IMG/VR virus record: IMGVR_UViG_3300020582_000006
Span: 21,314 to 85,313 of that record
DNA: 64,000 nt
Source: a virus
Strand: one strand, 5' to 3'
Part shown: one piece after another, positions 16,292 to 59,468 of the stretch
Layout of the letters: the number at the start of each line of letters is the position of its first letter
Position numbering within the stretch: the stretch's first letter is position 1
The notes under the pieces: generated by a model
The model's input: the letters and a program-made list of their open reading frames with translations, nothing else
Told to the model about the DNA's origin: nothing
The model's database searches: none
Made by a program: the position numbers and the translations under genes

Positions 16292-16578
16292 CGCCGCCGA
16301 TGGGTTACTCGCGGGCATCTGAAGCCGAAGATGCCGACGTGATCCTGCGCATGTCCGAAAACGACTACATCATGCTGCTGACGTCTCTGGGTATGGCTTA
16401 TGCTTCAGGCCTTCAGGAATCCCTGCCGATGATCAACCGCATCAACGCAGGCAATCCGGACTTTTCGCCGTATGAATCCTCGGAAGACCTCGAAGCGAGA
16501 GCGGCGCAGACGGTCGCGATGCTCCGGAAACTAATGGAAGGGACGGACTCATTTCATGTGGGAATGCGCTCAGTGTAG
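16288..16578 (+). CDS. Hypothetical helical protein, 96 aa, TTG start
   Basis: TTG at 16288 forms a TTGA overlap with the previous stop; an ATG at 16300 is the alternative start. Mostly helical, with a hydrophobic MLLTSLGMAYASGL stretch and an acidic C-terminal half. It overlaps the TnpB-like gene by 23 bases. No family recognised. Confidence 0.45.
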   Translation: MTPPMGYSRASEAEDADVILRMSENDYIMLLTSLGMAYASGLQESLPMINRINAGNPDFSPYESSEDLEARAAQTVAMLRKLMEGTDSFHVGMRSV

Positions 16579-17752
16579 TCTGACGCGAGAGAAGCCGGTA
16601 AGCCGGCCGCCGATGGGCTGGAAACGGCGCGGCAAAGCCATCTATTGCAGGGACTGCTGGCGCAAGCTCTACGTGCTGCGGGCTGTCACGATCCCGGTCG
16701 TGAGCCCGCTGACGCTCAAGTACAAAGCTGATGAAACGCTTCACCCCTGCGACTGGGATGAGTTCGGGAAACGCCTGCGCGAGCAATGGGCGCTGATCAC
16801 CCAGGCTTCCAACTGGATGATGACCGAGATGTACATGCGGGATGACCGGTCCCGCGACAAAGGCAAGCTGCAGCCGATGCCCGGCGTCTATCTCTATCCC
16901 GAGACGCGCAAACAGTTTCCCGGCATGGCCTCGCAGACCACCGCGGCCCTCGAGAACCAGATCGGCAAGAAATACCGGGCGAAGCGTTTCGATGTGATCT
17001 GGACCTGCCGCGCCAGCCTGCCTACCTTCCGCTACCCCACGCCTTTGCCGGTACCTCATCAGGCATGGTCAATAAGACTTGACGATAACTGCCCGCTCGT
17101 CTCCGCGCCTATTGGAGATGCGCGTGTCGAATTTCGCCTGCGCAACGGCCATCAGTTCCGCCGGCAGCTGCTCGCCGTGAAGCAGATCATCGCGGACGAA
17201 GCCGAACCCGGCCAGATGGATCTCTACCGCCAGGGCAAATCGGTGATGTGCAAGCTGGTCGCCTGGCTGCCGCGCCGTCCGGTCGAGACGAAGATCGAAG
17301 GCACGCTGTTCGTACGCGCGGATGCGCAGGCGCTGCTGGTGGCTCTGAACGTCAAGGATGACCGTCTGTGGACCTACCATGGCGATCAGGCGCGTCGATG
17401 GTCAGCAGCGCACCGCCGGTTGCTCCAGCGCCTTGCAGACGACAGCAAGGCCGAACACAGGCCCACTGTGCCTTTCCACGCGCGGCGCGAGGCCGCGGCC
17501 CTCAAATATCGGGATCGCATGTCGAGCCTGACTCACCAGATCGCCGCTATGACTGTGAACTACGCCTTACGGCGGAAGTTCGCCGCCGTGCGCTATGACG
17601 ACACCGCCCGGGACCTGTTCTGCCCCCACTTTCCCTGGCACATCCTGCGGCTGAAGCTCGCTGAGAAATGCGATGCGGCCGGCATCGAGTTCCATGCGGT
17701 GACACCCGGGGAACCGGAAGAAGTCTTGCACGAACCGGTAATGGAGGAGTAA
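16556..17752 (+). CDS. TnpB/Cas12-like RuvC-fold protein, probably catalytically reduced
   Basis: 398 residues. An N-terminal zinc knuckle (CAQC, then CRDC at ~31-34) precedes a helical region and a beta-rich stretch (ARVEFRLRNGHQFRRQL, then KLVAWLPRR) resembling the REC/WED parts of TnpB and compact Cas12 proteins. A RuvC-like core follows: VRADAQALLVAL with a candidate first Asp (~249), a long helical bridge, KFAAVRYDDTARDLF where TnpB has its Glu, and PWHILRLKLAEKCDAAGIEF, the usual helix before the third motif. The protein ends ~20 residues later, so the zinc ribbon and third RuvC Asp of TnpB are absent. No IS ends or TnpA accompany it. It is the last gene before the repeat array starting near 17955. 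RNA-guided DNA binding without cleavage is one hypothesis; family assignment is by eye. Confidence 0.6.
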   Translation: MWECAQCSLTREKPVSRPPMGWKRRGKAIYCRDCWRKLYVLRAVTIPVVSPLTLKYKADETLHPCDWDEFGKRLREQWALITQASNWMMTEMYMRDDRSRDKGKLQPMPGVYLYPETRKQFPGMASQTTAALENQIGKKYRAKRFDVIWTCRASLPTFRYPTPLPVPHQAWSIRLDDNCPLVSAPIGDARVEFRLRNGHQFRRQLLAVKQIIADEAEPGQMDLYRQGKSVMCKLVAWLPRRPVETKIEGTLFVRADAQALLVALNVKDDRLWTYHGDQARRWSAAHRRLLQRLADDSKAEHRPTVPFHARREAAALKYRDRMSSLTHQIAAMTVNYALRRKFAAVRYDDTARDLFCPHFPWHILRLKLAEKCDAAGIEFHAVTPGEPEEVLHEPVMEE

Positions 17753-17889
17753 ACTTTTGGTTTCCGCGCCACCGACAGGCGCAGGCCGCTTATTCGCTGG
17801 AAACGCTTGCCGATCCAGTCGACGCGGCAAAGCTGCTGTTAAGGGTTCCTGATATGGGCGCAAGCCGCAGCCGGGAAAACGATCATTGA
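17668..17889 (+). CDS. Possible small gene before the array (start unclear)
   Basis: The C-terminal half of this open frame (FWFPRHRQAQAAYSLETL, then DPVDAAKLLLRVPD) reads like a small phage protein, but no ATG, GTG or TTG lies in frame after the TnpB-like stop. In another frame a TTG at 17757, seven bases after GGAGGAG, would give a 31-codon peptide ending at 17852. Either could be real. The remaining bases to 17954 hold nothing I recognise. Confidence 0.25.
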   Translation: MRCGRHRVPCGDTRGTGRSLARTGNGGVNFWFPRHRQAQAAYSLETLADPVDAAKLLLRVPDMGASRSRENDH

Positions 17890-17954: not shown

Positions 17955-19266
17955 CTGATCGGATCGGGCTTGTTGTGGGCCTCCTACCTGATCGTTCGGT
18001 ATGGCTGCTCGCGCGACGTTCGGGTGGGATTCGTTCGGTTCATATCTGGATTCGTTCGGGGGGCTCGCAACTCGTCGGATCGGCACAAGAGACGGCAGAT
18101 CGGTCGGTTGGAACAGCCAGATAGGTCGGGGCAACGCCGGATGAGGCTTTCGGGTGCTTAATCCAGATTCCCGTCGGGAAAGATGAGTCAACCGGTTCGG
18201 GGCCTGCTACCTGATCGGTCGGAAACCCGTCGCCGAACTGATCGGGAGATGATCGGGCGTTCGGGGGGATAGGTCGGGGTACTCGCAGTCCTCGGGTCGG
18301 GAATAGTTCGGGAAACGATCGGGAACTGATCGTGTCGGGTCTTGCATCTGTCCACCGTCTCGGGTTGCGAGTCATTCGTTCGGGTGGTCTCGATGGCTGG
18401 TCGTCTCAGGCCCTGAAAGACCAGATCGTTCGGGTTTCGCGGATGTGGTTCGTTCGGGTGTTGCATCTGCAACCATCGTTCGGGTTTTCAACTTCGTTTC
18501 GGCGGGGACTGTCGGACCACCGAAGGCTGGTCGTTCGGTCGCCACTGCCGCTCAGATCGTTCGGGACACAACTGGGAACTGATCGTGTCGGGTCTTGCAT
18601 CTGTCGATTCGGGATTTTCGGGTCACGACCATTCGAGATCGGTCGGGTGGGGCAAGAACAAGATCGGTCGGGGTAAGTAGCGAGATCGGTCGGTATCCGA
18701 TTTGTTCGGGTCTTTAACTCGTCCTCTGGCCTGTTCGTTCGGGGGATGTTAGCGGAGATCGGTCGGGCATCCTGGCCTGTTCGTTCGGGAAATAGCCTAA
18801 GCGGAGATCGGTCGGGCAACTTGAAAGAGGCCTCTGTATTTCGGGCACCCCGTCAAGGAGTTCGTTCGGGGATATATCGGCCGGGAAATGGACAAGCCGG
18901 CGTCGAGATCGGTCGGGCTGTAGCAAGGAGTGCCGGTCGGGTCGGTGGAATCAGCAGCCGAAGCTATCAGGCGTCGAGATCGGTCGGTCAAGGAATGGTT
19001 TTTGATCTTTCGGGGCCTGGGCGAAATATCTGCAATCGGTCGGGGAAAGATTTGGATCGTTCGGTTCGCCGCGACCGTACCGGGCGTCGTGATCGGTCGG
19101 GCCAAGCTCATGATCGGTCGGGCTGTGGAGTGATTTCATCGGGATTACCGGCGTTTGCGTGATCGGTCGGGATTTGTTCGTCAGTGAGGATCGGTCGGGG
19201 CTCGCGCTGTTCCCAGGCTCTCGTCAGCGGTCATCGGGATTACCGGCGATCCGGGTCGGTCGGTCA
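17955..19266 (+). repeat. Array of ~50 short direct repeats with variable spacers
   Basis: About 1.3 kb without a convincing gene. A conserved core recurs in one orientation, either GATCGGTCGGG or (A/T)TCGTTCGGG, about 50 times. Core-to-core distance is mostly 20-29 bases with gaps near two units, so each unit has ~8-11 conserved and ~13-16 variable bases. The T-type core dominates up to ~18.56 kb, the G-type after ~18.64 kb, and the two alternate around 18.70-18.91 kb. Some spacers are duplicated, for example GTGTCGGGTCTTGCATCTGT at 18331 and 18584. The core is not self-complementary, so no hairpin is expected from a single unit. The array follows the TnpB-like gene and precedes the RepA iterons. 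It could be a guide-RNA-like array or a centromere/iteron region. Confidence 0.85.
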
Positions 19267-19352
19267 GAAAAAGCTCGAGTGCCTTTTTCCGGCGGGGTGT
19301 TTCAGCGGAGCTTTGTTTCGGTTCAATGAATTGATCGTTCGGTATCTGTCAC

Positions 19353-19361
19353 TTTTCCACA
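19353..19361 (+). promoter_or_regulatory. DnaA-box-like site near iterons
   Basis: TTTTCCACA differs from the consensus TTATCCACA at one position and lies 60 bases before the iterons. The same nonamer occurs in the second origin-like region at 25.6 kb. It could help load host DnaA at the RepA-dependent origin. Confidence 0.4.
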
Positions 19362-19420: not shown

Positions 19421-19516
19421 GCGCCCCTAAATCTACGTATGCGCGCCCCTAAATCTACGTGCCCGGGTTCGCATCGCATTGATTCGACTGAAACCAAAGC
19501 GCCCCTAAATCTACGT
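19421..19516 (+). repeat. Three iterons of a RepA-type replication origin
   Basis: GCGCCCCTAAATCTACGT occurs exactly at 19421-19438, 19443-19460 and 19499-19516, all in the same orientation (spacings 22 and 56 bases). They lie just past the 3' end of the repA-like gene. Exact direct repeats beside a plasmid RepA are characteristic iterons, to which the initiator binds to open the origin and to control copy number. Confidence 0.85.
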
Positions 19517-19534: not shown

Positions 19535-20521
19535 TCAGGGTTTTCCTCGTTTCCCCGCTGCCGGGCGAATCGCCTGGCCTGGTCGGACGACGAGGAAATC
19601 GGCCGTCAGCTCTGCCGGACACGCAGGCCAAAGTCCGCGAACGGTATCCATCCATTTCGATATCTGTTCCCGGAATCGACGTGGTCGCGCGTAGTCTATT
19701 ACCCCTAATTGAAATTCCAGTCCCGCTTCTCCGAATATGGGGATGAGTTGCTCCTGCGTTGCCGTGAAGCAGCGCCAGATGAGCCAACACGTGAAATCCA
19801 GTGCGCCCGGAGCATGCGCCAGCTGCCGGACTATGTTCATATCAATCGGGATCGGGTGGTTTTTTACTTCGTTCCAGAACTGCTCTGACAGCACGATGAC
19901 GTTCTGAAAGTCTTCACCCGGCAATCCGGGGTGGTCGCCGTTTGAATACCAAAGCCGCATCTGATCGAAGAAATTGAACCGTGACCGATCGATGTATCTG
20001 GCCTGTCCTCTTGTGCCGTCGGTACTGAAGTAGATCGTGGCATCAAAAAGGCGCTCGAAGCCCTCGACGATGCGTTTGTAGTGGAACCCGCTGGTACTGA
20101 GTCCGAACTCGCGGAGCATCTCAGCTGCGCTGTCGAAGGTAACGCGTCGGTTCTGTTTGATCACAGCAAGAGTACTGATCCATAAGGGAATAAGCCGGTC
20201 CTGACCGAAGGGAAGCCCCAGTTTGGAAGTGGTCGCTATGCGTAATGAGAACCGCCCGTTGACTCGCGTATACTCCTTGACCCCTGCAGCTGGCCGCCGG
20301 ATAGGAAGCCCGCACAGAACGAATGGACGCGTGTTATAGCCTATCGATTGTCGGCCTTCCTCTCTCGCCGCCCGGACCAGTTCGATACCTTCGACGCGCT
20401 TCTGAAATTGCTTTGATACGCCACGAAGTTCGCGTCGGACCGGCTCGGCTGGAAGATCCAACCCGTTGACGAAGTCCGTATCCCCTGCTCTCACCAATGC
20501 CGGTTTTATGTTGTCTTTCAT
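19535..20521 (-). CDS. repA: Plasmid RepA-type replication initiator
   Basis: 328 residues from ATG 20521 (ATGA overlap with the HNH gene); a longer frame upstream is antiphase to that gene. The sequence fits plasmid RepA proteins of the RepA_C class: GYNTRPFVLCGLPIRRP, then RLIPLWISTLAVIKQNRRVTF, a winged-helix-like region (MLREFGLSTSGFHYKRIVEG), WNEVKNHPIPIDMNIVRQL and ALDFTCWLIWRCFTA. It would bind the iterons at 19421-19516 and initiate host-dependent replication. Last gene of a leftward operon that also encodes ParA and a ribbon-helix-helix protein. Confidence 0.85.
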   Translation of the reverse strand: MKDNIKPALVRAGDTDFVNGLDLPAEPVRRELRGVSKQFQKRVEGIELVRAAREEGRQSIGYNTRPFVLCGLPIRRPAAGVKEYTRVNGRFSLRIATTSKLGLPFGQDRLIPLWISTLAVIKQNRRVTFDSAAEMLREFGLSTSGFHYKRIVEGFERLFDATIYFSTDGTRGQARYIDRSRFNFFDQMRLWYSNGDHPGLPGEDFQNVIVLSEQFWNEVKNHPIPIDMNIVRQLAHAPGALDFTCWLIWRCFTATQEQLIPIFGEAGLEFQLGVIDYARPRRFREQISKWMDTVRGLWPACPAELTADFLVVRPGQAIRPAAGKRGKP

Positions 20522-20883
20522 AGCTCGTGGCACTCGAACAGACTCCCCTGGCTGTAGATGGAACGTAACGCCTCGCGCGGGATCTCCCATGCTGGCACAC
20601 TCGCGTACTCGATCTCGGGCAGCAGCCACAGCTGGCCGGACTCGCGCGCCCGCCGGCGGCGCATGACGGCGATCTTATGCCGCGCGTCGGCCCGGGAGTG
20701 GCAGGGAGCGCAGCGGATCCGCACGCTCGATGTCCGGGGATCGTGCGTCTCATGCGTGAGCTGCACGTACCGCGGAATCGGGCACAGACAGTCGCGGCAG
20801 ACGGCGCCGCGCGAGGCGATCAGGGCCAGCCGGTACCGCTGCCACTCCGGACCATAGAACTGCCTGTAAGACGCCCGGATCAT
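20518..20883 (-). CDS. HNH-endonuclease-like protein
   Basis: 121 residues from ATG 20883. It has an HNH-type zinc layout: VCRDCLCPIP, then LTHETHDP and IRCAPCHSRADARH. The N-terminus (FYGPEWQRYRLALIASRG) is common in phage HNH proteins. HNH proteins near replication or packaging genes act as nickases or homing-type nucleases; the target here is unknown. ATGA overlap with repA. Confidence 0.75.
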   Translation of the reverse strand: MIRASYRQFYGPEWQRYRLALIASRGAVCRDCLCPIPRYVQLTHETHDPRTSSVRIRCAPCHSRADARHKIAVMRRRRARESGQLWLLPEIEYASVPAWEIPREALRSIYSQGSLFECHEL

Positions 20884-21678: not shown

Positions 21679-21903
21679 TTAATCCATGTGCTCCAGCTTC
21701 TCGGCCGCCGACTGCACGATAAACGCGCTGCGGCTGATGCCCAGGCGTCTGGCCCCCTTGTCGATGCGGCCAAGCAGAACCGGATCGATCCGTATCATCG
21801 TGGGTTTCTTGTTGGCCTGTTCGTCGGGCAACCTGCCCGACTTCGAGATGAAGGCTTTGGCCTTGCGTTCTTTGACTGCGGTGGGATTTCTAGCGATTGC
21901 CAT
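21679..21903 (-). CDS. Ribbon-helix-helix centromere-binding-type protein
   Basis: 74 residues. A basic N-terminal arm (KERKAKAFISKSGRLP) precedes a ribbon-helix-helix domain: TMIRIDPVLLGRIDKGARRL then GISRSAFIVQSAAEKLE. It starts within the last codons of parA and resembles ParG/omega-type small partners of ParA ATPases, which bind DNA repeats as centromeres and repress their own promoter. The large repeat array at 17955-19266 is a candidate target; this link is untested. Confidence 0.7.
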   Translation of the reverse strand: MAIARNPTAVKERKAKAFISKSGRLPDEQANKKPTMIRIDPVLLGRIDKGARRLGISRSAFIVQSAAEKLEHMD

Positions 21904-22552
21904 TCGATACCTCTTGTATATCGTTTGTATAGAGGAATTTTACAAGCTGATTCATCTCGTCCGCGGCCTTCTGGTCCTCGCGGTATTCGGCCACGGACAG
22001 GCCCAGCGCGGCCGCGTTCGGGAAGGCCTTGCGCCGTCCGATCATGCAGGGGGCGATCTCGATGCCGGCGATCTCGCGCAAAGCGGCCAGCGCCGCCTCG
22101 TTGTCTTTGCCCTGCGGATCGGCCTCATTGATGACGGCGACGGCGCGCAGCGACTCATTGATCTCGCGGGCTTCCGCTACCAGCTCGCATGTCTCTTCGC
22201 TGCGCCACAGATCAAAGCTGCGCGGCTTGAGCGGGATCAGGACGGTATCGGCGACCGTGAGCGCCGCCCGCAGGCTGCCGGTCGCGTCCTCGCCGCCGAT
22301 GTCGATCACGATGTCGGCGAACTTCGAGGTCAGCTGCCGGACCTGAGTCCGGATATTCGCGCCGCGCAAAGCGACGGCGGTGTAACCCGACTTGCCCTTC
22401 GCTGTCGTGCGCAGATCGGTGAACGCGAGCGCCGCGCCCTCGGCGTCGATCAGCAGAACGTCCCGGCCGTTCGCGGCTAACGTGATTGCCAGATTCACTG
22501 CCAGGGTCGTTTTGCCAACGCCGCCTTTCAGGTTGCCGACCGTAAAAATCAT
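21890..22552 (-). CDS. parA: ParA-family partition ATPase
   Basis: 220 residues, the short ParA (type Ib-like) form without an N-terminal DNA-binding domain. Deviant Walker A is at residues 8-15 (LKGGVGKTT); DVLLIDAEG and the DIVIDIGGEDA Walker B strand follow, then VLIPLKPRSFDLW. ParA forms ATP-dependent gradients on the nucleoid that position plasmid copies via a centromere-binding partner, here probably the overlapping ribbon-helix-helix protein. Supports plasmid-like maintenance. Confidence 0.9.
   Translation of the reverse strand: MIFTVGNLKGGVGKTTLAVNLAITLAANGRDVLLIDAEGAALAFTDLRTTAKGKSGYTAVALRGANIRTQVRQLTSKFADIVIDIGGEDATGSLRAALTVADTVLIPLKPRSFDLWRSEETCELVAEAREINESLRAVAVINEADPQGKDNEAALAALREIAGIEIAPCMIGRRKAFPNAAALGLSVAEYREDQKAADEMNQLVKFLYTNDIQEVSNGNR
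21914..21931. promoter_or_regulatory. Direct TTGTAT repeats upstream of the RHH gene
   Basis: TTGTATATCGTTTGTATA, two TTGTATA copies 10 bases apart, lies 11 bases before the ribbon-helix-helix start, inside the 3' end of parA. It belongs to the recurring GTATATCGNTTGTA family. An operator or internal promoter is inferred. Confidence 0.45.
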
Positions 22553-23772: not shown

Positions 23773-23919
23773 GCTGAATCAGGGGAAGCTGGGCAGCAAC
23801 CCGGCTTTCCCTCAGTCTTGAAAATACCACAGACGGGATAAAATCTGGTCTCAGGCTGCCTAGTCCGGCCAGACGACAAGCGGGAAACCTCACCCGCTGG
23901 CAGCCTGCCTCGAAGAACA

Positions 23920-24513
23920 TCATTTCCATAACTTCTCGAACCGGGCCGCATTCGTAGCGGTATACTTCACCGTGTGCTCGATCTTGCGATGGCCGAGGTA
24001 GTCCTGAATGAGCCGGGTGTCGGCGCCCTGATCGGCAAGGGCGAAGCCGCAAGCGTGCCGCAGCATGTGCGGGTGGGCCGTGAAGGGCAGGTCAGCCGCT
24101 GCGCTCGCGGTCTTGAGCAGATAGTTCACGCTCGACCGGTGCAGAGGCTTGCGCTGTTCCGAGACAAAGAAGGCTTTGACGGTCGCCGGCACGTTCATGG
24201 CTGTCCGGACTTTGAGCCAGGTCCTGATCGCCCGCACTTCCTCGACGCGCAGCGGGTGAGTGGTCGAGAGCCCGCGCTTGAGGCGTTTGACATGCAGGAT
24301 GCGGCTTTCGGTGTCCACATGGTCGAGCGGCAGGCTGCAGATCTCCGACACGCGATAGCCGTGGCGGAAGCTGAGAAGCAGCAGGCAGCGATCGCGCTCC
24401 CGGTTGCGGCTGATCTCGGAGGCGGCGTCGATGAGTTTCTCGACCTCGCGTGCGGTAAGGTGCAGGCGGTCTGATTTGTCGGGTTTTTCGTCTTGTTTTG
24501 CGTTGTTTCCCAT
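23920..24513 (-). CDS. FimB-like tyrosine recombinase
   Basis: 197 residues, about the size of FimB/FimE-type recombinases that lack the arm-binding domain of phage integrases. Catalytic residues are visible: Arg in FRHGYRVSEICSLPL, HPHMLRHACG (H-x-x-R-H), LGHRKIEHT and the Tyr in HTVKYTATN. It could integrate the element, resolve multimers or invert a segment. Its ATG lies within one arm of a 17-bp inverted repeat (24512-24592), and related sites occur at 62.2 kb. No excisionase is adjacent. Confidence 0.85.
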   Translation of the reverse strand: MGNNAKQDEKPDKSDRLHLTAREVEKLIDAASEISRNRERDRCLLLLSFRHGYRVSEICSLPLDHVDTESRILHVKRLKRGLSTTHPLRVEEVRAIRTWLKVRTAMNVPATVKAFFVSEQRKPLHRSSVNYLLKTASAAADLPFTAHPHMLRHACGFALADQGADTRLIQDYLGHRKIEHTVKYTATNAARFEKLWK

Positions 24514-25638: not shown

Positions 25639-25747
25639 TTTTCCACAGCAGGGTTTTCCACAACCCGATCAAGAAGAGAACTATAGTTCTCTTCTTGAAT
25701 TCAAGAAGAGAACTATAGTTCTCTTCTTGAATAAACCTGTGGAAAAC
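25639..25747. repeat. Origin-like double palindrome flanked by DnaA-type boxes
   Basis: A 30-bp perfect palindrome (25669-25698, arms CAAGAAGAGAACTA / TAGTTCTCTTCTTG) is repeated exactly at 25701-25730 with AT between, so all 62 bases form one larger palindrome and the 14-mer occurs four times. Outside it GTTTTCCACA (25653-25662) and TGTGGAAAAC (25738-25747) form an outer inverted repeat, each holding a DnaA-like nonamer; another nonamer is at 25639-25647. The structure lies 50 bases after the initiator gene. Origin, replication-terminus or telomere-resolution functions are possible; no protelomerase is visible. Confidence 0.85.
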
Positions 25748-28468: not shown

Positions 28469-29194
28469 ATGGCACGAAGACCACCGGAAGTTACTGCGCC
28501 GCCTCCCGCGCCGCCGCTGACCGTGACCGGCCTGACGATCGAGATGTGGTCGATCGACCGGCTGATCCCCTACGAAGGGAAAGACGGCGGCGGAAACGCG
28601 CGCAGGATTACGACTGCGGCGATCGACAAAGTGGCGCAGTCGATCTCGCGCTTCGGCTGGCAGCAGCCTGTCGTAGTCGAACCGGCGCCTAACGAGGGTG
28701 TCATTATCATCGGCCACGTGCGCCGCCTGGCCGCACTCAAACTGGGCCTGCGCGAAGCGCCGGTGCATGTGGTCCGCGGCCTCTCGCCGCAGCAGATTCG
28801 CGAGCTGCGCATCGCTGACAACCGGACTCACGATGAAGCGACCTTCGACGTGAGCGTACTGCTGAGTGAGATCAAGGACCTCGAACTGGAAGCGACCGGC
28901 TTCGACCGCTGGCAGCTGGATGAGTTCTCAAGCGTGGCCGCGTTCGAGGATGAGATCGTGCCCCTCGGTATCGAGGGCGAAGAGGAGGAGGCGAACGGCG
29001 TCGGCGCGCGCAACCGTAATTACGACCGCGCCCGCATGGTCGATGCGATCCTCTATGTCGAGGACGTGGCCGTATTCGAGAACGCGCTGCGGGCGACGAA
29101 CCTCGCTAACAGGGGAAAGGCTCTGGCCGCCATATGTCAGGCATACTTGGAAACAAACAGCAGAAGCAGAAAGACAACTCAACCGGAAGCCTGA
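28469..29194 (+). CDS. ParB/Srx-fold nuclease-like protein
   Basis: 241 residues with a ParB N-terminal domain: WSIDRLIPYEGKDGGGNARR, then VAQSISRFGWQQPVVVEP, VIIIGHVRRLAALKLGL and VHVVRGLSPQQIRELRIADN. This form (IGHVRRLAALKLG, RIADNRT) belongs to phage ParB-like proteins often fused to or next to methyltransferases, not to classical chromosome partition ParB. It may be a nuclease or regulator. Its end overlaps the next gene by 61 bases. Confidence 0.8.
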   Translation: MARRPPEVTAPPPAPPLTVTGLTIEMWSIDRLIPYEGKDGGGNARRITTAAIDKVAQSISRFGWQQPVVVEPAPNEGVIIIGHVRRLAALKLGLREAPVHVVRGLSPQQIRELRIADNRTHDEATFDVSVLLSEIKDLELEATGFDRWQLDEFSSVAAFEDEIVPLGIEGEEEEANGVGARNRNYDRARMVDAILYVEDVAVFENALRATNLANRGKALAAICQAYLETNSRSRKTTQPEA

Positions 29195-34393: not shown

Positions 34394-36187
34394 TTAGCGG
34401 GATGCTTTCTTCTTTGCGGTGGCCACTTTCCTGACTGTGGCCTTAGCCTTCTTTGCGGGTTTTGCTTTGTGCTTCGCCGCAGTCTTCACTGCGGGTGTTT
34501 TCGGCGCGGGCTCTGCCGGGGACTTACCGGCTTTCTTCGCCTGGGACTTCAGCCGCGCCGCCTTGAACACCTCGCGCATGCGCATGCCGATCTCGTTCTC
34601 GATGTTCTTATGATCGATCCCGAAGACGTTCGCCGCCATGTCGAACCGCTTCCTCTCGTCGCCCGCGCTATAGAGTTGCTCGCGCGCGCAGTCCTGCAGG
34701 GCGAGCCCGAAGATGATCTTCGGCAGCCAGTCCGATGCCGGTGACCCTTTCTCGGCCAGAATCATCCGGCGCAGTTCGGCGGTGACATCGCTCGACGAAC
34801 GCTTGCCGGCCTCGAGGCCGGGGAACTTGAACACGTCGAGCAGCTCTGGCGGTGTCATGTGCTTGAGCAGCGCGAGCGCGATGATCTGCTGCTGACTATG
34901 AGGAACAGCCCAGATGTAGTTCTTGCCGTTCACCGGCTCATTGCAGATATCTTCGAGGACCTGACGCCGCGCCGCCGTCTCGATCTTCTCGCCCAGTTTC
35001 TTTTCTTTCTGCGCCCAGAAGTCCACCTTGCCTTCGGGAGTTCGCGACGTGTGCGAAGCAGGCCGGTAGTTGTGATGGAGTGAGCACTGCTGATTGCGGC
35101 AGACCTGAATGATGGTTCCCTTGCCGGGATTGTCCACATAGATCGCCTGTTCGGTATCGGGACAGTTCTTGACCTTGCCCTTCTTGTTGGCAACGACCTC
35201 GGCGTAGGTGTCGCGGCCTATGGCGTTTTCGCCCTTCGCCGGATTGTAGTTATGGCTGATGCGGACCAGCTCGACGCCTTCGTCTTTCTTCACCTGAACG
35301 ATCTGAATGAAGTGGGCCTCGGCCTTCGCCGCGTAGCAGTCCCGGTCGAGGCAATGATCGCCGGCCCGCACATCGTCGAACAACTGAGCGTTGGCCGCGC
35401 TGCGCTTGGGGCATGTGATGCAGGCGCCCGCGGCCGGGATCAGTTCGGCGTCGTCCTTGGCCCAGGGCGCAGCCGCCAGATCGAGCAGGATCTCCGCGTC
35501 GATCAGATCGTCGAGATGAGCCACGGTGACCGCGTGTACGGTCCGGTCGTACTTGTAGCCCTGACCGGGCACGAACTTGCTGCCGCCCTCTTCATAGAGC
35601 AAGTGCTCGAGGACATGCCGCTGGCTGGCTTCGGGAAGCCGCGCGAGGCGCTGCGCGTGCCCGACGTGGATCTTCTCGGCGATGAAGTCTTCGCGCAATT
35701 CGGGGATCAGATTGACCAGCGCCATGCGTTTGTAGACATAGGCGACGTTCTTGCCCACGCGATCGGCGATGGTCTGCGCCGTGTAATTCGGCTGGCTCAT
35801 CAGATGCCGGAAGCCGTCCGCCTCTTCGAGCGGGTGAACGTCTTCGCGGATGAGGTTCTCGACGATCTGGATCTCGAGCACCTGCTGGTCGTCGAGATCG
35901 CGCACGATGGCCGGGATCTGGCCCAGTTCCGCTTCCAGGGCCGCGCGGTAGCGTCTGCTGCCCACCACGATCTCGAAGGCCTGCGGCCCCCTGTTTCTTA
36001 CCAGGATGGGCTGCACGATGCCGACAGAGCGAACGCTCTGCACCAGTTCATCCATCGCTGTCTTGCGCCAGGTCTTGCGCGGGTTGGTTGTCGATTCCGT
36101 GAGCCATGCGAGAGGAATACTCTCGTATGCCGGTGTGAGAGCTGCAGCCGTGGCTTCAGCAGTATTTGCTCTGGTCGTTTTGGCCAT
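34394..36187 (-). CDS. parB: Large ParB/Spo0J-family protein
   Basis: 597 residues, about twice a normal ParB. The N-terminal ~190 residues hold the ParB core: IPLAWLTESTTNPRKTWRK, QSVRSVGIVQPILVRN, VVGSRRYRAALEAEL (GSRR instead of the usual GERR), VLEIQIVENLIREDVHPLEE with the CTP-pocket ENxxRED, then a helix-turn-helix (TIADRVGKNVAYVYKRMAL). The middle (~245-345) contains ACITCPKR, HCLDRDCYAAK and CRNQQCSLHH, a zinc-type cysteine set. The C-terminus is a Lys/Ala/Pro-rich tail. Such long ParB-like proteins occur in plasmids and phages and may regulate or segregate DNA. A consensus parS lies at 53956. Confidence 0.85.
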   Translation of the reverse strand: MAKTTRANTAEATAAALTPAYESIPLAWLTESTTNPRKTWRKTAMDELVQSVRSVGIVQPILVRNRGPQAFEIVVGSRRYRAALEAELGQIPAIVRDLDDQQVLEIQIVENLIREDVHPLEEADGFRHLMSQPNYTAQTIADRVGKNVAYVYKRMALVNLIPELREDFIAEKIHVGHAQRLARLPEASQRHVLEHLLYEEGGSKFVPGQGYKYDRTVHAVTVAHLDDLIDAEILLDLAAAPWAKDDAELIPAAGACITCPKRSAANAQLFDDVRAGDHCLDRDCYAAKAEAHFIQIVQVKKDEGVELVRISHNYNPAKGENAIGRDTYAEVVANKKGKVKNCPDTEQAIYVDNPGKGTIIQVCRNQQCSLHHNYRPASHTSRTPEGKVDFWAQKEKKLGEKIETAARRQVLEDICNEPVNGKNYIWAVPHSQQQIIALALLKHMTPPELLDVFKFPGLEAGKRSSSDVTAELRRMILAEKGSPASDWLPKIIFGLALQDCAREQLYSAGDERKRFDMAANVFGIDHKNIENEIGMRMREVFKAARLKSQAKKAGKSPAEPAPKTPAVKTAAKHKAKPAKKAKATVRKVATAKKKASR

Positions 36188-57969: not shown

Positions 57970-58065
57970 ATGCTGAAGTACTTCCTGATCGGCGAAGCCT
58001 GCGGAATCGCGACGGTGTTCCTTGGCGCTTATCTGCTGTACCTCTACTTTGACCGCCGCTGGTGA
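57970..58065 (+). CDS. 31-residue membrane peptide before Ro60 gene
   Basis: ATG 57970 to TGA 58063-58065, overlapping the GTG of the Ro60-like gene. One transmembrane helix (GIATVFLGAYLLYLY) ending DRRW. Translational coupling to the Ro60-like gene is likely; a separate function is unknown. Confidence 0.45.
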   Translation: MLKYFLIGEACGIATVFLGAYLLYLYFDRRW

Positions 58066-59468
58066 AACGAATTATGAAGACGAACACTGCCCCCGCTTAC
58101 TCGCCACCGCCTCGAACCCATGAGGGCGCGGTCGCGGATCGCATCACGCCGCTCCAGCAGCTGCGGCGCAGCGTACTCACGTGCCTCCTCTGGGAAGACA
58201 ACTTCTATGAGTCCGGCGCTGCAGTCGCCGCACGCATCGCGGATCTTTGCACGAAAGTGAAGCCGGAAGACATTGCCACGCTCGCCATCGAAGCGCGTGA
58301 GGCGATGAAGCTGCGGCACGTTCCGCTCTATCTGGCGGTCCAGCTTTCGAAGCGCAAAGGTTATGGCTCGCTGGTCACCGACGTTCTCGACAAGATCGTT
58401 CAGCGCGCCGACGAACCGGCCGAACTGCTGGCGATGTACTGGCAGGACCGCGCGGCGAAGTTCAAAGACATCGACGGGCGGCGGCAGGGTGGCGCGATCT
58501 CGCACCGCGGCATCAAGACCGGCCTCGCGAATGCCCTGCATCGCTTCAACGAGTACCAGCTGGCGAAGTGGCGCGGCGACGACAAAGCCGTCAAGCTCAG
58601 GGACGTGATTCGCCTCGTTCACCCAAAGGCGTCCAGCCCCGCGCAGGCCGATCTCTGGAAGCGCGTCATGAAAGGCGAACTCGCTACTCCCGATACCTGG
58701 GAGGTCGAGCTGTCCGCCGGCAAGGACAAGCGCGAGACTTTCACGCGCCTGCTGACCGATAACAAACTGGGCGGCCTCGCCTTGCTGCGCAACTTGCGCA
58801 ACATGGAACAGGCGGGCGTCGACCGCTCGCTCGTCTCGACCCGGCTCGAGCAGGGCGTCGAGCGGGCGCTGCCGTTCCGCTTCATCACGGCGGCTCGCTA
58901 TGCGCCGAACTACGAGCCCTCGCTCGAAATTGCCATGTTCAAGGCGATCGAAGGCATGCCGAAGCTTCCCGGCAAAACCGGGCTGATGGTCGATGTCTCC
59001 GGTTCGATGGACGGCCGGATCAGCGCCAAGTCCGAAACGACTCGCATCGACGTGGCTGCGGGCCTCTCGATCCTCGTGCGCGAGCTGTGCGAGACGGCGG
59101 TTCTTGCGACTTTCTCGGATCGGGTGGTCGCGATCCCGCCGCGCCGTGGCTTCGCGCTGCGGGATGCGGTTCTCAATTCGCAGCCGCATCATGGTACCTA
59201 TCTCGCGCAGGCGCTGGCAACGATGACCATTCAGCCCGCGTGGAAGGATATGGACCGGCTGATCGTGCTGACCGACGAACAGTCGGCGGACGGGATCTCA
59301 CTCGGCAGCGTGACCGGTCTCGCTTACTGCGTCAACGTGGCCTCGAATGCCAACGGCGTCAGCTACAAGAACGGCTGGCAGCACATTGACGGCTGGTCGG
59401 AAGCGGTTCTGGACTACATTCGCGAGATTGAAATTGAAAGCGCCAACGAAACCAGATCCCAAAGCTGA
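58062..59468 (+). CDS. rsr: Ro60/TROVE-domain RNA-binding protein (Rsr)
   Basis: 468 residues from GTG 58062. The N-terminal two thirds is a TROVE HEAT-repeat ring: QQLRRSVLTCLLWEDNFYES, then HVPLYLAVQLSKRKGYGS, KTGLANALHRFNEYQLAKWR and NKLGGLALLRNLRNMEQAGV. The C-terminal von Willebrand A domain has an intact metal site: LMVDVSGSMDGR (D-x-S-x-S), HHGTYLAQAL and LIVLTDEQS. Ro proteins bind misfolded RNA and Y RNAs, and in bacteria join with PNPase for RNA decay. Five Y-RNA-like genes lie directly upstream, forming a self-contained module. Encoded by a probable phage, where such genes are known but rare. Confidence 0.92.
   Translation: MKRIMKTNTAPAYSPPPRTHEGAVADRITPLQQLRRSVLTCLLWEDNFYESGAAVAARIADLCTKVKPEDIATLAIEAREAMKLRHVPLYLAVQLSKRKGYGSLVTDVLDKIVQRADEPAELLAMYWQDRAAKFKDIDGRRQGGAISHRGIKTGLANALHRFNEYQLAKWRGDDKAVKLRDVIRLVHPKASSPAQADLWKRVMKGELATPDTWEVELSAGKDKRETFTRLLTDNKLGGLALLRNLRNMEQAGVDRSLVSTRLEQGVERALPFRFITAARYAPNYEPSLEIAMFKAIEGMPKLPGKTGLMVDVSGSMDGRISAKSETTRIDVAAGLSILVRELCETAVLATFSDRVVAIPPRRGFALRDAVLNSQPHHGTYLAQALATMTIQPAWKDMDRLIVLTDEQSADGISLGSVTGLAYCVNVASNANGVSYKNGWQHIDGWSEAVLDYIREIEIESANETRSQS

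Follow-up and report, generated by a model that had tools for sequence, protein, structure and literature searches.

A same-orientation array of about 50 short repeats beside a RepA-type origin in a probable phage-plasmid: a possible replication-control region

Results

A repeat array lies between a Cas12-like gene and a RepA-type replicon

The window analysed here is a stretch of 64,000 nucleotides that corresponds to bases 21,314–85,313 of an 85.3-kb IMG/VR virus record (IMGVR_UViG_3300020582_000006). In this window, 1.8 kb of non-coding DNA separates the stop of a 398-aa ORF (16,556–17,752, plus strand) from the gene of a replication initiator, repA (19,535–20,629, minus strand), and most of this gap is filled by an array of short direct repeats. 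The ORF encodes a Cas12u3/Cas12f-like protein (PADLOC Cas12u3, 5.9e-11; Cas12f, 7.3e-10). On its other side, the array is followed by a DnaA-box-like site, three perfect iterons, repA and an RHH/ParA pair. The initiator was recognized by its RepA_C domain (PF04796, E 2.8e-10); its start codon is uncertain and a later start is possible. Beyond repA, an HNH-like gene (phrog_589, E 2e-5) is followed by the gene of a 175-aa protein that had no match; then come an RHH protein of 74 aa that is the probable partner of ParA (21,679–21,903, minus strand, PF01402) and a ParA-family partition ATPase (21,890–22,552, minus strand; phrog_164, 1.3e-35; NF041546, 5.5e-46). A PDB sequence search gave no match. 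The initial annotation, which was made from the sequence alone, had thus named the neighbours correctly, with a protein of the Cas12/TnpB superfamily on one side and RepA_C, RHH and ParA on the other. Judging from its RepA and ParA genes, the phage probably persists as a plasmid.

Several features were observed elsewhere in the record. Two further ParB_N proteins are encoded at 28,469–29,194 and 34,394–36,187, so that ParB-like genes exist in the record in addition to the ParA/RHH pair; the larger of the two also contains HTH_ParB and resembles the ParB of PRTRC systems (8.7e-43). An int-alpA RNA (RF02996, 43.8 bits) is located at 23,853–23,919, close to an integrase gene (23,920–24,513), and a perfect 32-bp tandem pair, TCAAGAAGAGAACTATAGTTCTCTTCTTGAAT, in which each copy is largely self-complementary, is found at 25,669–25,732. 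A Ro60-like protein, matched by TROVE (2.9e-11) and weakly by vWA, is encoded at 58,062–59,468.

The array consists of polar 11-bp cores with jittery spacing

Based on a PWM scan, spacing and information content, the array extends from about 17,957 to 19,343 on the plus strand and comprises about 50 same-orientation copies of the 11-bp core GATCGKTCGGG, which are separated by variable spacers. Of the copies in the scan, 33 are strong and about 13 weaker, all on one strand. Above a threshold of 12 bits, 29 sites are located on the plus strand of the 1.5-kb array region and none on its minus strand, with just four sites in the remainder of the 64 kb on both strands together. Furthermore, all nine occurrences of GATCGGTCGGG in the window fall inside the array, and the best 11-mer, when up to two mismatches are allowed, is present in 32 forward and no reverse copies, compared to at most 13 copies in composition-matched shuffles. 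The array that had been proposed from the sequence (17,955–19,266, about 50 repeats in a single orientation) is therefore real and slightly longer than first described, and its repeat number was a fair estimate, as merging all TCGG[GT] matches gives about 55.

Two core types, TCGGTCGGG and TCGTTCGGG, are intermixed, the latter being commoner in the first half of the array; the G- and T-types do not strictly alternate and their spacing is uneven. No two of the 33 strong sites are spaced by less than 21 bp, and their spacings cluster near 21–30, 47–55 and 71–82 bp, i.e. at about 25, 50 and 75 bp. An earlier estimate of a period of about 24 bp is supported in so far as the periodogram peaks at 25.3 bp, above the 99th percentile of the null, but the pattern is a jittery ladder and not a regular period. 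Phasing to the 10.5-bp helical turn is absent (R = 0.05). Neither sigma-70-like promoters nor terminators exceeded the shuffle level around the array, and a search of phage and plasmid records with the DNA of the whole array revealed no similar sequence.

Such an array could be a neutral minisatellite that has diverged, and some local duplications are indeed visible in it, such as a tandem pair of 46 bp and two copies of a 32-bp segment that lie 253 bp from each other. However, the core is sharply conserved, with the information limited to its positions 0–10 and nearly random flanks, and neither reverse copies nor strong copies closer than 21 bp occur. We consider a minisatellite improbable.

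The adjoining origin has its own iterons

Between the array and repA, a pattern scan detected a DnaA-box-like site, TTTTCCACA (19,353–19,361, plus strand), which is followed by three perfect 18-bp iterons, GCGCCCCTAAATCTACGT, that start at 19,421, 19,443 and 19,499 (19,421–19,516, plus strand; spacing 22 and 56). Most of the related loci that we checked have similar boxes next to repA, and Granulicella has none. Three-copy sets of 22/33-bp iterons lie just 3' of repA in viral contig L257, Polaromonas and Pelobacter, while the iteron sequence of the window itself was not found in other viral contigs. The three iterons are the probable core origin.

The GATCGKTCGGG core has no significant similarity to these iterons (shuffle p above 0.1), and the orientation of the array is opposite to that of repA. 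Like iterons, the array is made of one-orientation direct repeats in an origin region adjoining the initiator gene. It does not consist of long (about 17–22 bp), closely similar units at helical-turn spacing, and thus departs from the strict description of iterons by its core of only 11 bp, its jitter and the lack of 10.5-bp phasing; the three 18-bp repeats come nearer to classical iterons than the array does. Among the three functions that had been suggested initially, incompatibility iterons are closest to the evidence, with the reservation that three perfect iterons are already present separately. As the replicon has these iterons of its own, the sites of the array would make up a second class.

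Comparable arrays recur beside related repA genes

RepA relatives were detected by tblastn in 557 plasmid records. Beside the repA genes of relatives, we compared forward and reverse counts of the best 11-mer to the maximum obtained in shuffled sequence. Arrays above this maximum were found in Granulicella pACIX905 (15/0, shuffle maximum 5), Curtobacterium pS16 (18/5, maximum 6), Cupriavidus campinensis (19/2, maximum 7), C. metallidurans (13/3, maximum 4), a Nocardia plasmid (15/1, maximum 7) and viral contig L258 (17/0, maximum 4). Beside repA of Polaromonas, Pelobacter, Pseudanabaena, Stenotrophomonas and Methylobacterium, no array exceeded the shuffle level, and Frondihabitans has a palindromic version that is present on both strands.

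The clearest related arrays are those of pACIX905 and L258. The plasmid pACIX905 of Granulicella tundricola (Acidobacteriota) has the gene order ParA, small gene, RepA, and the non-coding DNA 3' of repA contains 15–17 same-strand repeats, TCGTCCTTCCGGGTAC, with variable spacers and a spacing of 21–23 bp plus larger gaps. Similarly, ParA, a small gene and a RepA_C-like gene are followed in L258 by 17 direct repeats, TATCGTGCTTCCGCGT, at 22–25 bp (L258:5899–6331), directly 3' of the RepA_C-like gene. In both cases the array runs with repA, unlike in the window. L258 and L257 are the two loci recovered by a RepA scan of viral contigs that used a two-sequence alignment; single-sequence scans (ParA and RepA in viral contigs, ParA in genomes) found no relatives. 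The RepA of L257, which is 39% identical to that of the window, is the closest relative found in viral contigs. In this contig, ParA, a small gene and RepA are accompanied by a DnaA-box-like site and just three iterons, and an array is absent; the array is thus dispensable for this type of RepA.

Regular and irregular copies occur together in two of the plasmids. In Curtobacterium, a regular 22-bp cluster is accompanied by irregular copies of the same core, cluster and copies having opposite orientations, and in Cupriavidus, a run at 22–23 bp is accompanied by about 14 scattered copies of the same core. As the core is common to both kinds of repeat, this suggests that irregular arrays of this type are initiator sites. 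The window follows the RepA-linked pattern in having a multi-copy, same-strand, degenerate array in a register of about 21–25 bp beside a homologous repA, but its core is not shared with its regular iterons (p above 0.1). Similarity of the window core to the cores of Granulicella (p 0.017) and Cupriavidus (p 0.038) does not survive correction for about 24 comparisons.

We also scanned viral contigs for the core itself. Matches in one contig (L050) are coding repeats in a protein with NSFGN repeats, and others are simple TCGG microsatellites. Four contigs of one phage group (L228:1488–1925, and also L128, L229 and L166) contain a non-coding array of 11–12-bp TCGGTCGGG tandem repeats between genes, followed by repeats like CCTCCGATGGAAAAGCTCACC, whose orientation is kept between diverged members. 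Since these are near-perfect 11–12-bp tandem repeats, we did not regard them as comparable.

The presence of non-coding TCGGTCGGG clusters in this unrelated phage group, together with the strict single orientation, the missing helical phasing and a core unlike the iterons, would be in line with sites for another phage or host regulator, acting either as a decoy or as a polar DNA-processing signal similar to Chi or KOPS. However, the phage clusters differ in their near-perfect tandem structure and were found by searching that very core, and a link to the replicon is indicated by the position beside repA and by comparable arrays that accompany other repA genes with other cores. We consider a separate regulator unlikely.

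The array is probably not a guide array of the Cas12-like gene

The Cas12u3 match covers residues 60–384 of the upstream protein (profile positions 13–342 of 398) and ends before the C-terminus of the family. As the same profile also matches several control genomes, Cas12/TnpB superfamily is the safe label. No relatives of this ORF were recovered by protein searches of viral contigs, GTDB genomes, plasmids and phages, and an AlphaFold model computed without an alignment had a mean pLDDT of 36.9. Just downstream of the ORF, in another (−1) frame, the stretch 17,757–17,889 contains LADPVDAAKLLLRV, which resembles a RuvC-III motif. When this stretch was joined to the protein, the profile score was not raised; it may hint at a frameshift or a split gene, or have arisen by chance.

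Guide RNAs of TnpB-type systems lie 3' of the gene on the same strand. The array has this position relative to a genuine Cas12-superfamily match just upstream, and its spacers are variable. These features would fit a guide-RNA or mini-CRISPR array, and a guide-RNA-like array had been among the first suggestions. However, no Cas12-like gene was detected in the records of L257, L258, pACIX905, pS16 and Frondihabitans, so that similar arrays occur beside homologous repA genes with no detectable gene of this kind. Matches of the spacers to their own record are not above those of shuffled sequence, and similar DNA is absent from phage and plasmid records, although spacers of about 13 nt are too short to exclude targets. 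Compared to versions with shuffled spacers, the array RNA is not more structured and not more open, and the gap between the Cas12-like gene and the array folds like random sequence. Finally, no Cas1 (PF01867) match was found in the 85-kb record, which is possibly incomplete. The array has neither near-identical repeats nor a near-constant spacer length, in agreement with the initial statement that it is too irregular for CRISPR. Beyond proximity and strand, nothing supports a guide function, which we regard as highly improbable, and we judge that the Cas12-like protein is not part of the function of the array.

A variant of this idea is that the Cas12f-like protein works with the array either through guide units of about 25 nt or through one guide that would direct an inactive protein to the roughly 50 cores, where it would control the replication of the phage-plasmid. 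This reading starts from a protein that apparently lacks the C-terminal part of the nuclease, and we give it very little credence.

The ParA/RHH pair and the centromere alternative

The main rival explanation is a parS-like centromere, in which the RHH protein would bind the cores and, together with ParA, partition the phage-plasmid. Arrays of short repeats serve as RHH centromeres in other plasmids, and in the window a type Ib-like ParA/RHH pair is located about 2.3 kb from the array; Granulicella and L258 likewise have ParA and a small gene beside their arrays. ParA of small Sphingobium plasmids, which have the gene order ParA, RHH, RepA, shares about 61% identity with the window ParA, and the RHH protein of the window is 38–46% identical to proteins encoded after parA in plasmids of Sphingobium, Rhizorhabdus and Roseomonas. 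Two Sphingobium plasmids that we examined have 22-bp iterons upstream of repA.

These relatives argue against the centromere. They keep the residues M36 and R38, which we take to be base-contacting by alignment to CopG, yet the regions from parA to repA of five plasmids contain no array of the motif. Furthermore, no core site is present upstream of parA in the window, and no array accompanies ParA, the small gene and RepA in L257. All five relative plasmids share a different motif, TGTATATC, in the region upstream of parA; in the window, this motif lies close to the start of the RHH gene, and it is a better candidate operator. The centromere that had been proposed initially is thus weakened by plasmids with a similar RHH protein and no array, as well as by the L257 cassette, and we consider it rather unlikely.

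Discussion

We propose, with a probability of about one half, that, in a RepA-type origin on a probable phage-plasmid, the array forms the inc-like half with a regulatory function and acts by titration or handcuffing of RepA. The three perfect iterons and the DnaA-box-like site adjoining repA would form the core origin. The roughly 50 weak same-orientation sites would bind RepA or a partner within the replicon, with one complex per about 21–25 bp, and would keep RepA off the core iterons (titration), pair with the core iterons through RepA (handcuffing), or both. As an outcome, the copy number would stay low and related replicons would be excluded (incompatibility). The sites with their polarity and spacing, their position next to iterons and repA, and the recurrence of such arrays near homologous repA genes are computational results; we infer RepA as the binder and a lowering of initiation upon binding. 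In its operation, the array most likely resembles the control part of an iteron origin and not a set of strict iterons.

Several observations count against this proposal. The core is unlike the iterons of the same replicon, the orientation is opposite to repA and L257 has no array; in addition, the conserved part is just 11 bp long and the spacing shows no helical phasing, unlike in classical iterons. Two of these properties, the distinct core and the opposite orientation, are together with the number of sites what makes the array unusual.

If the replication-control reading is right, the window belongs to a phage, probably persisting as a plasmid, that uses a very large control origin of two site classes (three iterons and about 50 weak polar sites), and irregular one-strand arrays would recur in RepA_C replicons across Acidobacteriota, Actinomycetota and Betaproteobacteria. 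RepA-linked arrays are easily misread as guide arrays where a Cas12-like gene is near. The array would also be a direct test case for the question of whether many weak initiator sites set a low copy number.

Comparison with known systems

The upstream gene matches profiles of Cas12u3 and Cas12f, a feature shared with Type V-F/V-U3 CRISPR-Cas. Unlike in these systems, the window has no uniform repeats, no constant spacer length and no Cas1, and the profile match ends before the C-terminus. TIGR arrays, which are known in phages, have short repeats of 8–12 nt and short variable spacers (PMC12045711). TIGR-Tas differs from the window array in its two alternating repeats, spacers of a constant length of about 9 nt and a Tas protein with a Nop domain (PMC12045711); a Nop-domain protein (PF01798) was sought in the record and is absent.

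The initial annotation stated that no element of this form has been described. This is too strong, since related repA genes are repeatedly accompanied by similar arrays and since the control regions of RA3 (PMC9455977) and of Vibrio cholerae ori2 (PMC6090056) offer parallels. In ori2-inc of V. cholerae, RctB binds 39-mer and 11-mer sites, and the second site class acts by titration and handcuffing (PMC6090056). As in the window, this second class is unlike the iterons and lies beside the minimal origin; the sites are few and longer and the initiator is a different one, so that the analogy is only functional (PMC6090056). In the IncU plasmid RA3, the repeat region DR1 titrates the initiator RepB and causes incompatibility (PMC9455977). 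DR1 and DR2 are long repeat regions flanking the initiator module, similar to the window array, whereas their repeats are regular units of 38–60 bp (PMC9455977).

Iteron origins of the RepA_C type, such as those of Granulicella pACIX905, the Cupriavidus metallidurans CH34 megaplasmid and Curtobacterium pS16, have an initiator of the same family. Compared to them, sites are more numerous in the window, the core is shorter (11 bp versus about 16–17 bp) and not significantly similar to the window's own three regular iterons, and the orientation is opposite to repA. In both, short repeats of one orientation are located in non-coding DNA beside repA, in a register of about 22–25 bp with larger gaps and over an extent of 0.4–1.5 kb.
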